Assembly: GCF_037975245.1 (NCBI RefSeq)
Contig: NC_092563.1
Location: forward strand, 22,288,960-22,352,959
Direction of reading: 5' to 3'
Source of the DNA: Apostichopus japonicus
Taxonomy: Eukaryota > Echinodermata > Holothuroidea > Aspidochirotida > Stichopodidae
Length of the DNA stretch: 64,000 nt
Shown: positions 34,001 through 37,680 of the stretch, piece by piece
How positions within the stretch are numbered: position 1 is the stretch's first letter
How the letters are laid out: every line of letters starts with the position of its first letter
Program-made: the position numbers and the translations under genes
Notes under the pieces: model-generated
What the model saw: only the letters and a program-made list of their open reading frames with translations
What the model was told of the DNA's origin: nothing
Databases searched by the model: none

Positions 34001-36314
34001 CACAGGGGTCAACCATGGACAATTTTGATCGGAAGGTATCTTTGAGATCTGATTATGGCCCGGAAAATTCAAATAACCAAAGAAACTGATACAGGTCACC
34101 GGAGGTCAACCTGAAGTCAAAGGTCACCTAGATTACTGGGTTACAATAGCATAACTCCCAACCTTGACGGACATTTTGTTCTCAAGTTATTGCAAGAATA
34201 CTAGTTTTTGACCCCTAATTGACCTTTGTTGACCTTGGATCACATGACCGTTACGTTTGGAAATGATCCCTTACCCCATTCACAACTATTCCCAAAATAT
34301 CAACCATGTCAGACCCTGTCAATGGGAGTTACTGCTGTGTTTATTATTTTGGTTTTTGGCCTCTTACTGACCTTTGGTGACCTTCACAGGCACCAAAAAC
34401 AATAGGGATCTTCCTCTCACTATGAGTTATCCACCCACCAAGTTTGATCATGATACATCATTTCCTTATTGAGATATCGTGTACACAAGCCAAGCATCAC
34501 ACACACACACACACATACACCCAGTTGAATGCATAGGTTCCTTGCTTTCCAAAAAGCAAGGAACCAAAAATTACTTACCTCTATTCTAAATTACACCAAT
34601 GTCACTCCATCCCCCATCAATTCCACAACTTTACTGTCACTGGTCATTAACGAAACCTACTTTGTAATTCTCTTCTTTTTGGAACAGTTTTTAAAATGTG
34701 GCACAGCAAACTACATTCAACTGTTTCATATAGCTCACCTCAATAAGTTTGGCACATTCTGTGGTGGTTGTTACATTAAAGCTGATATCAACCCGAATCT
34801 GAGTGAAGGCATCTGTCAGTTTCACGATGGGCACCTTTATAGAAAAAAATATATATTGAAATAACCCAAACGCAGATAATAATTTATGACTTCATCTGAT
34901 TGGGAAATGTGTACCCCCTTTTGTTTTTACAAAGAAATGAGTTGGGCTTAAGGTAGTGAGTTAACTATAAAACTCTGACATTGCTCATGGCAGAAATGTT
35001 GGCATCTCTCCTGTGGCCTCCTACTTTACAAGTAGTGGCTGTTATAGAAGCATCCAGAGTTTGTGAGAAGCCATGATTCCATGGCTAATACGTAATAAAT
35101 GGAAACCTGGATAACAGGAAGGGGTGTAGGAGGGGGGAAGGTGGCTGTGGTTGTGAAGAGGGGGATTAGAGGGCTGTGGTTGTGAGGGGGGGGTGAGAGG
35201 GCTGTGGTTGTGAGGAGAGTGTCCACAGAACTCTATGCTACCTAATTCGTCATATTGTAAAATTGCCTTGCAGGACCTCACATGTTCATACTGTTACAAA
35301 CTTCTGGAGGGCATGTGGTAAGTATCAAATGTCATTCTCTTCCAACCTATAAAGCAGATCCGAATACGCTTTGGTGAAGTTGTGGTGTATTTTTAGGTTA
35401 TCTATCATTAATTAATATCAAAACTTCTGGACAATACTTTTAAATATTAAGTGAGGAATGTCAGGCATCCTTAAACATTCTTTAACAAAATCCCAAACTG
35501 AAGTATCACTGTATTCATATGTTCCTTGTCCTCATGGTGCAAGATAGCTAGGCAGTGGCCATTATGATAACTTTAACGAGTAGCTCAGTGCACACCCTGG
35601 GATCCAAAACCTTTGGACACTATGTTCATACTTCACTCATACCAGAAAGGCTTATAAAGTCAGCTTATACACTAATCACTGTACAATACACTACACTGTT
35701 TCTTATCACTTGACCAGATAACATGTGGATTTATGCAGGACATACTAACCTGTCTCCCCAGCCTGCATATGCACTTTCCTACTGTATATATCTAGACTAC
35801 ATGGTCAGAACATTTTATCACTCCCCCTCCCCCCCCAGCCCCCCCTCCACTTATGGTACACTCCCCACGTTCACTTCCTTATAGATCAACCATTCAAAGG
35901 AGCTACTACGTAAAATTAATTTTTCTCTCCACGTTGCTCTTTAGTGATTGTTTCTTACCAACTAGTGTGACCCACTAGCAGAGTGGATGGCTTCTAATGG
36001 ATTTAGATAAACTTGGATAGTCTATAGAAATACTAGACAGATGACTAAACAGGGTTTGTTGATTGCAAACAACATTTACTCTCACTATCTACTGTATTTA
36101 ATACAGTTTTCTTTCCCTTCAGAGTTGTGCACATTTCAACAAGAACAGACATATGACCAGATGAAGATATTTCCTGACAATAATTGGACTTACAGTGGCT
36201 TTATCCAGTACTTTAATGGTCCCTTGTGAAGGGAGTGCACTGTTCTTTAGCTCCTCTCTGAGGCGACAGCAGGGATTGTCTCCTAGATCTCCGAAAACGA
36301 CAAGGTCGATATCA
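30507..36314 (-). CDS. TENT4: TENT4-type non-canonical poly(A) polymerase, 5'-truncated (copy A)
   Basis: Relative of PAPD5/PAPD7 and yeast Trf4: adds A tails to nuclear RNAs for exosome decay or mixed tails to mRNA. Exons 36314-36194, 34834-34739, 33553-33413, 33065-32873, 32477-32357, 31818-31428 and 31094-30507 all join in frame (about 550 residues). They hold the catalytic DID (DIDLVVFG) and third Asp (VDISFN), the central domain ([22 protein letters not shown]), the nucleotide-recognition region (GRNSFG ... [12 protein letters not shown]), a Ser/Asn/Gln-rich tail and a basic end ([10 protein letters not shown]). The exon that should encode GSF(K)TGLYLPTS before DID is not found between 36314 and the junction at 37310, so the gene is headless here. 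TENT4A and TENT4B cannot be told apart in an invertebrate. Confidence 0.88.
31428..31818 (-). CDS. TENT4: TENT4 copy A exon with [12 protein letters not shown]
   Basis: Acceptor CTCCACACAG|CATCC. 130 codons: the conserved [12 protein letters not shown] and LWVQQNW, then low-complexity Ser/Asn-rich sequence. Donor GATTCT|GTAAGT, phase 0. Confidence 0.9.
32357..32477 (-). CDS. TENT4: TENT4 copy A exon with GRNSFG
   Basis: [20 protein letters not shown], the nucleotide-recognition motif region. I place the donor at CATAG|GTCAGT because it gives GHS|ILGRII, matching the family's ESILGRII. Confidence 0.88.
32873..33065 (-). CDS. TENT4: TENT4 copy A central-domain exon 2
   Basis: Contains [26 protein letters not shown] and LCLKDPLNN. 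Donor AATG|GTAAGT, phase 1. The matching copy B exon has a 2-bp deletion. Confidence 0.92.
33413..33553 (-). CDS. TENT4: TENT4 copy A central-domain exon 1
   Basis: Contains [13 protein letters not shown] and [17 protein letters not shown], highly conserved in the family. Differs from copy B at one silent base of 141. Confidence 0.92.
33850..34565. repeat. TGACCT-rich intronic repeat ending in a hairpin
   Basis: At least ten TGACCT/AGGTCA hexamers in both orientations, a CA microsatellite (34498-34516) and a perfect 13-bp hairpin (GGTTCCTTGCTTT / AAAGCAAGGAACC, loop CCAA) at 34536-34565. It looks like the 3' end of a dispersed element inside the TENT4 intron. In copy B it is cut off at 63577. 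Confidence 0.65.
34739..34834 (-). CDS. TENT4: TENT4 copy A exon with third catalytic Asp
   Basis: [20 protein letters not shown] and on to CAKLIE; Asp in VDISF is the third metal ligand. Acceptor CTATAAAG|GTGCCC, donor GAG|GTGAGC. Confidence 0.9.
34866..36193 (-). other. TENT4: TENT4 copy A intron between catalytic exons
   Basis: 1.3 kb without coding signal. It has GGTGGCTGTGGTTGTGAGG-type imperfect tandem repeats at 35120-35220 and a C-rich run at 35822-35850. Single copy in the window. Confidence 0.6.
36194..36314 (-). CDS. TENT4: TENT4 copy A exon with catalytic DID
   Basis: Acceptor TTCTTTGCAG|TGATATCG; the first base completes a split Ser codon, so an upstream exon is required. It encodes [12 protein letters not shown] through IKVLDKAT. 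Donor ACT|GTAAGT, phase 0. Confidence 0.9.
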
Positions 36315-37309
36315 CTGCAAAGAAGGAATAAAGAATCATATCAATAATGAATATTAATAAGTCTACCCACCCAAAAGTTCGAAGTGCCAGTATTGAAAGT
36401 TTGAGTGTTATTTTAAAAGAGTTTACCACATAGACTGGGATGGTAGAACTAGAAGCAATGAAGAGGAGGGGGTTGGGGGGGGCATATGCCCTTCCACTTT
36501 TGTGAAAAACTGCCCCTTTTGTGAAAAGGAGCACCTTTTCATTAATTGCAAGTGCTCCTTTGTAGTAACAAAAAGTAACCTTCTTCTGATTTTATAATTA
36601 TAAAATTGTAACTACAAATGTGCCTTCTTGTTGAAAAATATGTAACAAATCATTCAAAGACTAGAATTTGTTGTATGGAATGTACAGAGGTTCCATTTTG
36701 TTGGAAAATGTCTGAGATATCTTTCTGCTCTGCCCCCACAAGTAACAGTCACATGTTCCACTGCCCTTTGATGTTTTTGCCCCTCATTATTGTACCCGCC
36801 TCCTCCACCCACTCTCCTCCAACCCCCTCCCTGTAAATAAAGCATGGCTCATAGTAGATCAGAGAAGATCCGAGTACGAGCAGGACAGAGCAAACAGGTG
36901 ATATTGAAATCCTGACAAGACTATTGAAATCCTGATAAGAGTAACTTGTTCAATTTGTGGCACTTGCTAATAAGAACTTCAAATAATCTACTAGAGACAT
37001 TTTCCTGAATTACAGCACACACCTGTTACTGTACAGGCTTACAGTACCAGAACAACAGAATTATATTTACTGATAATGAGCAGTAATTCAGCAGGTTTAT
37101 GTTGAGTACAGAATCATCATTCTTTGACTGACGGTTCTTAATCAACTAACCATGTGCTTCAATGTCAGATACTGGCAGAAACTGCAAGTGGCCCCTTGCT
37201 TTTCACTTCCCTTGCAAAGAGAAATATCCACAAACATTTAGCTTTAATAGCCAAAACGCTGAAGCCAGCGCAGAATAATATACAATAGTTGTAAACAAAG
37301 CTTCCCTTC
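36315..37309. other. Single-copy sequence between TENT4 and the junction
   Basis: No TENT4 upstream exon was found here on the minus strand, although the split codon at 36314 demands one. No other gene or repeat is evident beyond purine/pyrimidine-rich runs at 36460-36500 and 36780-36835. The duplication junction lies at its right edge. Confidence 0.6.
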
Positions 37310-37680
37310 ATTAGTATGCTTCATTCACCCAAAGTATGCCCCATTCCCTATAGCATGGTCCATCACCATAAGATTCTCCATTCCCCATAGCATAGTCCAA
37401 ACTCATATAATGCTCCATTCCCTATAGCATGGGTGGTCCCAATAGTATGTTCCATTCCTTATAGCAGGGTCCATCCCAATAGTATGCTCCATTGCCCCAT
37501 AGCATGGTCCATCCCTCAAACTATGACTCACTCCCAATAGTATGCTCCATTCTCCATTCCCCATAGCATGGTCCAAACTCATATAATGCTCCATTCCCTA
37601 TGGCATGGGTGGTCCCAATAGTATGTTCCATTCCTTATAACATGATCCTTCCCAATAGTATGCTCCATTCCCTATAGCAT
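37310..37680. repeat. 37-bp satellite, copy B (junction)
   Basis: About ten degraded units of the same satellite as at 1-945. It marks the boundary between copy A's TENT4 intron sequence and copy B's paraplegin exons. Homology to copy A starts within it, so the duplication breakpoint lies at or inside the array. Confidence 0.88.

Follow-up and report, generated by a model that had tools for sequence, protein, structure and literature searches.

A joint between cut SPG7 and TENT4 genes in Apostichopus japonicus belongs to a tandem segmental-duplication array

We analyzed a stretch of 64,000 nucleotides of the sea cucumber Apostichopus japonicus (RefSeq assembly GCF_037975245.1, contig NC_092563.1, here C3, positions 22288960-22352959), called the window below. 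It holds a joint at which the head of a paraplegin gene (SPG7) stands next to the body of a gene of the TENT4 family of poly(A) polymerases. The window is a slice of a tandem array of about half a megabase (C3:21.94-22.43 Mb), in which one block, cut through SPG7 and TENT4 and enclosing the whole of MCAT, occurs in some 10 repeats with ten joints on C3. SPG7 was identified by a match to paraplegin in the PDB (9rk6, E 2.3e-17, with a query that included one parental exon); its FtsH_ext match in Pfam fell under the curated cut-off (22.2 vs 25.5 bits). TENT4 matched a Trf4-type poly(A) polymerase (3nyb, E 1.1e-22), and its PAP exon matched the Pfam family PAP_assoc.

Comparison of the window with itself gives two direct copies that align in blocks of 85-95% identity, A at 608-34274 and B at 37330-63579. 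Alignments of kilobase length leave no room for chance. The exons of both genes were placed in A and B with human sequences as probes. An earlier note, made from the letters of the window alone, had described this direct duplication, with a TENT4 that lacks its head in A and a paraplegin that lacks its body in B, and the exon matches bear it out: A has headless TENT4-like exons on the minus strand, B has bodiless paraplegin-like head exons, and neither gene is complete within the window. The lesions that it had reported in the outer versions, a TAA in paraplegin A and two frameshifts in TENT4 B, are also there. The features of the cut genes and of the joint, from left to right, are:

1-904, strand not assigned: 37-bp minisatellite of the preceding joint, 24 copies, extending left beyond the window
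1061-1177, minus: SPG7 head exon ES, copy A, with an in-frame TAA
1837-1988, minus: SPG7 head exon TM1, copy A, open
30510-31094, minus: TENT4 A last exon, open frame of 195 amino acids, outside the cross-unit comparison
31428-31818, minus: TENT4 A exon LGRII, open
32357-32477, minus: TENT4 A exon FMEV, open
32873-33065, minus: TENT4 A PAP_assoc exon (Pfam), open
33413-33553, minus: TENT4 A exon KQF, open
34739-34834, minus: TENT4 A exon VP (VPIVKLTD..), phase 0-0
36194-36314, minus: TENT4 A exon SD (SDIDLVVFG..), the first retained TENT4 exon, starting in phase 2 and ending in phase 0
36402-37690, strand not assigned: duplication joint, 0.93 kb of filler plus a 37-bp minisatellite at 37333-37680 (Tandem Repeats Finder)
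37789-37905, minus: SPG7 head exon ES, copy B (..GRE, then gtaaga), open, phase 0-0
38545-38696, minus: SPG7 head exon TM1 (first membrane helix), copy B, open
39150-39245, minus: SPG7 head exon KLYNFP, copy B, stop-free
58939-59520, minus: TENT4 B last-exon open reading frame, with a frame change relative to A 30510-31094, read by eye
62201-62391, minus: TENT4 B PAP exon, with a 2-base deletion
62702-62842, minus: TENT4 B exon KQF, open
63580-64000, strand not assigned: start of extra sequence in a TENT4 B intron, not the end of the duplication

The limits of the joint follow from the parental loci: homology to parental TENT4 ends at 36401, and homology to parental SPG7 begins at 963 in A and 37691 in B. 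The earlier note had placed the junction at 34276-37680. The junction is real, although it starts about 2.1 kb inside that span: 34276-36401 is ordinary TENT4 with two exons, both of which B also has, outside the window, at C3:22359387 and 22360890. The duplication only appears to end at 63579 because about 6.4 kb of extra sequence, reaching to about C3:22359.3 kb, splits the TENT4 B intron and widens the spacing from KQF to VP from 1.2 kb in A to 7.6 kb in B. The satellite had further been assigned to a paraplegin intron, but none was found in the parental SPG7 intron, and the parental match begins just past it.

A search of the genome (671,581,487 bases in 35 contigs) shows that the event is not one of two copies, as had been assumed. 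The TENT4 exon LGRII was found at eleven C3 places, from 21976496 to 22414608, all on the minus strand, and at C18:4329446; these matches are weak singly and were placed in series with stronger TENT4 exons. Besides the parent, there are ten places with derived TENT4 bodies on C3, and one on C18. The SPG7 head exons occur at the parent (C3:21955133-21956606), at ten further C3 places (21978, 22027, 22073, 22126, 22179, 22224, 22265, 22291, 22327, and 22365 kb) and on C18. The leftmost derived head, at 21978 kb, shows the KLYNFP exon alone, and the one near 22073 kb lies outside the set of examined heads. Heads and bodies, at 11 places each, alternate in a single orientation. A block that recurs head to tail along a chromosome in this way constitutes a tandem segmental-duplication array. 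The C18 copy (C18:4327500-4347485) is a stray one, with a TENT4 body, the satellite, part of the filler, and an SPG7 head. A second TENT4-like gene lies at C17:35036981-35041906; where its PAP exon lies, the other strand weakly matches MCAT residues 1-81, which may be due to chance or may mark an older remnant of this gene neighbourhood.

The missing halves of both cut genes survive at the ends of the array, and only there, as expected if a single block was repeatedly duplicated in tandem. The SPG7 AAA/protease exons lie at the left end (C3:21937853-21950192, minus strand), 339 kb left of the window. The TENT4 5' exons lie 75-79 kb to its right, at the right-end TENT4: an exon LHEEI.. at C3:22431580 and, near C3:22427576, the GS-motif exon VEIYGSCKTRLFLPT, identified with tblastn against the right-end TENT4 locus. 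Both sets had been predicted on these sides from the window alone. The GS-motif exon has a GT donor and a phase that fits the next exon, and its DNA has a single place in the genome; a genome search with a short mixed peptide did not find it. The TAG present in two exon matches of parental SPG7, a candidate lesion, turned out to sit in an intron, outside the exon.

The derived units (nine on C3 plus C18) are 4.6-8.6% apart in aligned stretches, with the exception of one pair. Units u22020 and u22259 (C3:22009400-22034923 vs 22248016-22273556), 239 kb apart, have a block of 25.5 kb or more in common (99.1% identity); the length is a lower bound since the block reaches the left end of the examined DNA. 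This pair may reflect either very recent copying of a unit, which would suggest that turnover of the array continues, or a duplication in the assembly. In the latter case it could be an assembly artefact (a haplotype misjoin or a false duplication). As an account of the locus, however, an artefact is barely conceivable: C3 has eleven TENT4 places, and the remaining derived units compared are 4.6-8.6% apart, have a common joint, carry different lesions, and have a relative on another chromosome. There is also no N in the 221,125 bases examined. If the assembly was made from HiFi reads, such reads should separate copies of this kind; a published A. japonicus assembly is described as HiFi plus Hi-C in the passages available of its source (PMC10344927). 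The haplotype misjoin, which the earlier note had named as what would refute the duplication, predicts two versions, not eleven C3 places and a C18 copy, and we consider it practically excluded for the array as a whole.

The joints themselves point to a common origin. Neither the filler nor the 37-bp minisatellite was found in the parental SPG7 or TENT4 introns when the loci were compared. We compared the window's joint with the joint zones of u22020, u22046 (twice), u22113, u22172, u22214, u22259, u22281A, and u22350B. The TENT4-side stretch of the filler, of at least 146 bp, is present in all 8 other C3 joint zones examined, and clusters of the 37-bp satellite are found at nine C3 places, the window's two included, and on C18. 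Joint sequence is thus common to the units examined, C18 included and the leftmost joint left aside. Because this filler and minisatellite are specific to the junction and were not found in the parental introns, a single founding event is likely, and one founding joint that was then copied is the simplest reading. Two filler stretches resemble dispersed repeats (about 69-79%) on many chromosomes. In u22046, some 2.1 kb with the SD exon and filler are locally duplicated in tandem (C3:22049433 and 22051572).

Most inner fragments carry lesions. Units u22020 and u22259 have a TAA in PAP and a +1 shift in FMEV with a changed acceptor, and their KQF exon was not found. In u22046 there is a stop in LGR and, in the ES match from the genome search (its head being outside the detailed exon check), a TGA. 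Three units have a +1 shift in TM1: u22113, together with a split KQF and an LGR frameshift; u22172, together with an ES stop, a KQF acceptor change and stop, and an LGR stop; and u22350B, together with a 2-base deletion in PAP. An ES stop and a KQF acceptor change and stop are found in u22214, which also has a PAP stop and a +1 shift in FMEV, and in u22281A. In the C18 copy, LGR has a frameshift towards its end, and no SD exon turned up. Over the checked exons, the derived TENT4 bodies free of lesions number 1/9 on C3 (that of window copy A) and 0/1 on C18; the tenth C3 body, at 21976 kb, has only 3' exons and is omitted from these counts. The window junction, with the body of A and the head of B, is the sole examined joint that is lesion-free in all checked exons. 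One survivor is unremarkable among nine C3 bodies under neutral decay.

Substitutions private to one unit were counted in the copied exons, dropping u22259 (near-identical to u22020) and the split KQF of u22113. There are 30 silent and 69 replacement changes in the derived TENT4 bodies, and 5 and 23 in the derived heads. The sum, 35 silent and 92 replacement, gives no sign of purifying selection on the fused exons when set against a neutral expectation of 75% replacement (p = 0.47). The parental SPG7 head has 5 silent and 1 replacement changes, which differs from the derived heads (Fisher p = 0.005), and the ratio of replacement to silent divergence (dN/dS) between copies is 0.84. Copied exons diverge by 2.9% vs 6.5% in the intron flanks. 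Since silent sites have the same deficit, it does not indicate constraint at the protein level. As judged from these counts, substitutions in the fragments look neutral, and the inner copies look like ordinary decaying leftovers.

On the minus strand, every joint sets an SPG7 head upstream of a TENT4 body. This raises the question of a fusion gene, in which the SPG7 promoter and first exons would drive a transcript into the TENT4 body, with the SD exon skipped, to yield a paraplegin-headed TENT4 protein. Strand and order would allow it, as would the splice from ES to VP, which is in frame (phase 0 to phase 0). The open checked exons of the window junction also fit, as does the C18 copy, where no SD exon was detected and the in-frame order is the direct one. 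However, ES ends in phase 0 and SD starts in phase 2, so that a direct ES-SD splice reads GAG TGA, a stop; all 8 C3 junctions that were compared, among them that of the window, have this context. The in-frame product would have neither the GS-motif exon, present only at the right-end TENT4, nor the SDID exon. In this family, these two exons hold catalytic residues. Private changes give no signal of constraint either, with 2 silent and 8 replacement in the window unit and 1 and 11 in C18, whose LGR frameshift comes on top. Finally, a search with the human N-terminus and the list of open reading frames did not locate SPG7 exon 1, which holds the targeting sequence. Because the private substitutions look neutral and the GS-motif exon is missing, a working fusion gene at the joint is unlikely, and we give the transcript outlined above very little credence. 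A more specific form of it, in which the window junction would be a young expressed fusion that puts the membrane-anchored paraplegin head on a TENT4 body devoid of the residues of the lost exons, as a mitochondrial decoy or scaffold, appears slightly less probable still. If it were true, and if the unfound SPG7 first exon were retained, the fusion protein would carry a mitochondrial targeting sequence.

The earlier note did not mention a further gene, which lies whole in the middle of the unit. This is MCAT, the mitochondrial malonyl-CoA:ACP transacylase:

20519-25722, plus: MCAT (human MCAT, PDB 2c2n, E 3.5e-109, with the joined protein)
20519-21145, 23256-23342, 24258-24461, 25333-25722, plus: MCAT coding stretches, ends approximate

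MCAT is the sole whole gene found in the repeated unit, which is not fully annotated, and lies between the SPG7 head and the TENT4 tail. Its exons, searched singly against Pfam, gave no family match. In the window copy, the last coding stretch (25333-25722) has one residue less and differs immediately ahead of the conserved LPVSGAFHT, relative to the four other copies that have this stretch.

The array might have been retained because it multiplies MCAT, the two cut genes being by-catch. MCAT is full and open at 4 of 6 places (22101, 22203, 22309 in the window, and 22401 kb), the copy at 22157 kb having a deletion in exon 1 and that at 22274 kb being only the end of the gene. Open frames are thus more frequent than among the TENT4 bodies (4/5 vs 1/9, p = 0.023; 4/6 vs 1/10, p = 0.036, with partial places included). 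The private changes, 23 silent and 31 replacement (p = 0.007, omega ~0.45), and still 15 and 21 when the right-end copy is excluded (p = 0.033), are in line with this idea. However, the counts drop to 11 and 15 (p = 0.067) once the copy with the exon 1 deletion is also left out, and MCAT does not differ significantly from the fragments (Fisher p = 0.056, or 0.15 with the right-end copy excluded). The window copy itself has 3 silent and 7 replacement changes, and 5 of the 11 head-to-body intervals gave no MCAT match. Age is a confounder of the openness of MCAT, because the MCAT regions of the four inner copies are more alike (97.8-98.9% identical) and so may simply be younger. The MCAT copies show weak signs of constraint, and the array may owe its existence to MCAT dosage, though this is rather doubtful.

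Taken together, these observations make it very probable that a single founding duplication was followed by amplification into an array with decaying fragments of the cut genes. We infer an ancestral order of SPG7 (minus), MCAT (plus), and TENT4 (minus). One tandem duplication would have copied a block from an SPG7 intron, through MCAT, to a TENT4 intron, leaving a joint with the filler and the 37-bp minisatellite. Later amplification along C3 would have brought the number of joints to ten, for which unequal crossing-over among the copies is the simplest mechanism, and one piece would have been copied to C18. The outermost left SPG7 would alone have kept its AAA/protease exons and the outermost right TENT4 its 5' exons, while the inner headless TENT4 and bodiless SPG7 decayed as pseudogene fragments, presumably functionless. 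The tree of TENT4 bodies has 72% of its length in terminal branches and 28% in internal ones.

Several points count against this single-duplication account. The SPG7-head tree is less star-like than that of the TENT4 bodies (58% terminal, 42% internal), and several tree nodes have 24-38% support. Units u22020, u22259, and u22281A have just 146 bp of filler in common with the window joint, and the C18 copy carries a different part of the filler, the satellite-side stretch. At the leftmost joint (C3:21977.9 kb), filler and satellite are both missing and the TENT4 3' end runs straight into the SPG7 head, which we read as a later deletion. That filler and satellite arrived with the joint, as opposed to being lost from the parents, is not proved. 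Silent sites in the copied exons are 3.5% diverged vs 6.5% in the intron flanks, a gap that pure neutrality does not predict and that alignment or composition may explain. Finally, we did not locate the first exon of either SPG7 or TENT4, and for this reason we call neither end gene proven complete.

The locus offers a clear natural case in which duplication sacrifices two edge genes, preserves their missing halves only at the array's two ends, and multiplies the central gene. Its ten sister joints, in different condition, are replicates for the rate at which such fusions degenerate. A further lesson is that inspecting a few hundred kb on either side can settle the nature of an odd junction in a raw window. 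We found no paper on the locus in a literature search covering segmental duplication in A. japonicus, sea cucumber SPG7, and SPG7/MCAT/PAPD5 fusion. SPG7 is among the positively selected genes of another sea cucumber, in a study whose available passages make no mention of an array (PMC10764150).

In Drosophila yakuba, the boundaries of tandem duplications form chimeric gene structures, according to the available parts of Rogers et al. 2017 (PMC5460883). As at those boundaries, a duplication cutting through two genes has here brought the 5' portion of one gene to a position upstream of the 3' portion of the other. Unlike what these parts describe, the structure is amplified about tenfold, its direct splice gives a stop, and it is known from sequence alone. 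The event is of a known kind, a tandem segmental-duplication array, ordinary in kind and a tidy example. Arrays in which a complete core gene is accompanied by truncated edge genes are a known class, and the one described here is like them in having a whole gene inside the unit, cut genes at its edges, the missing parts at the ends, and turnover. It shows no essential difference from them; the junction minisatellite marks 9 of its 10 joints on C3.

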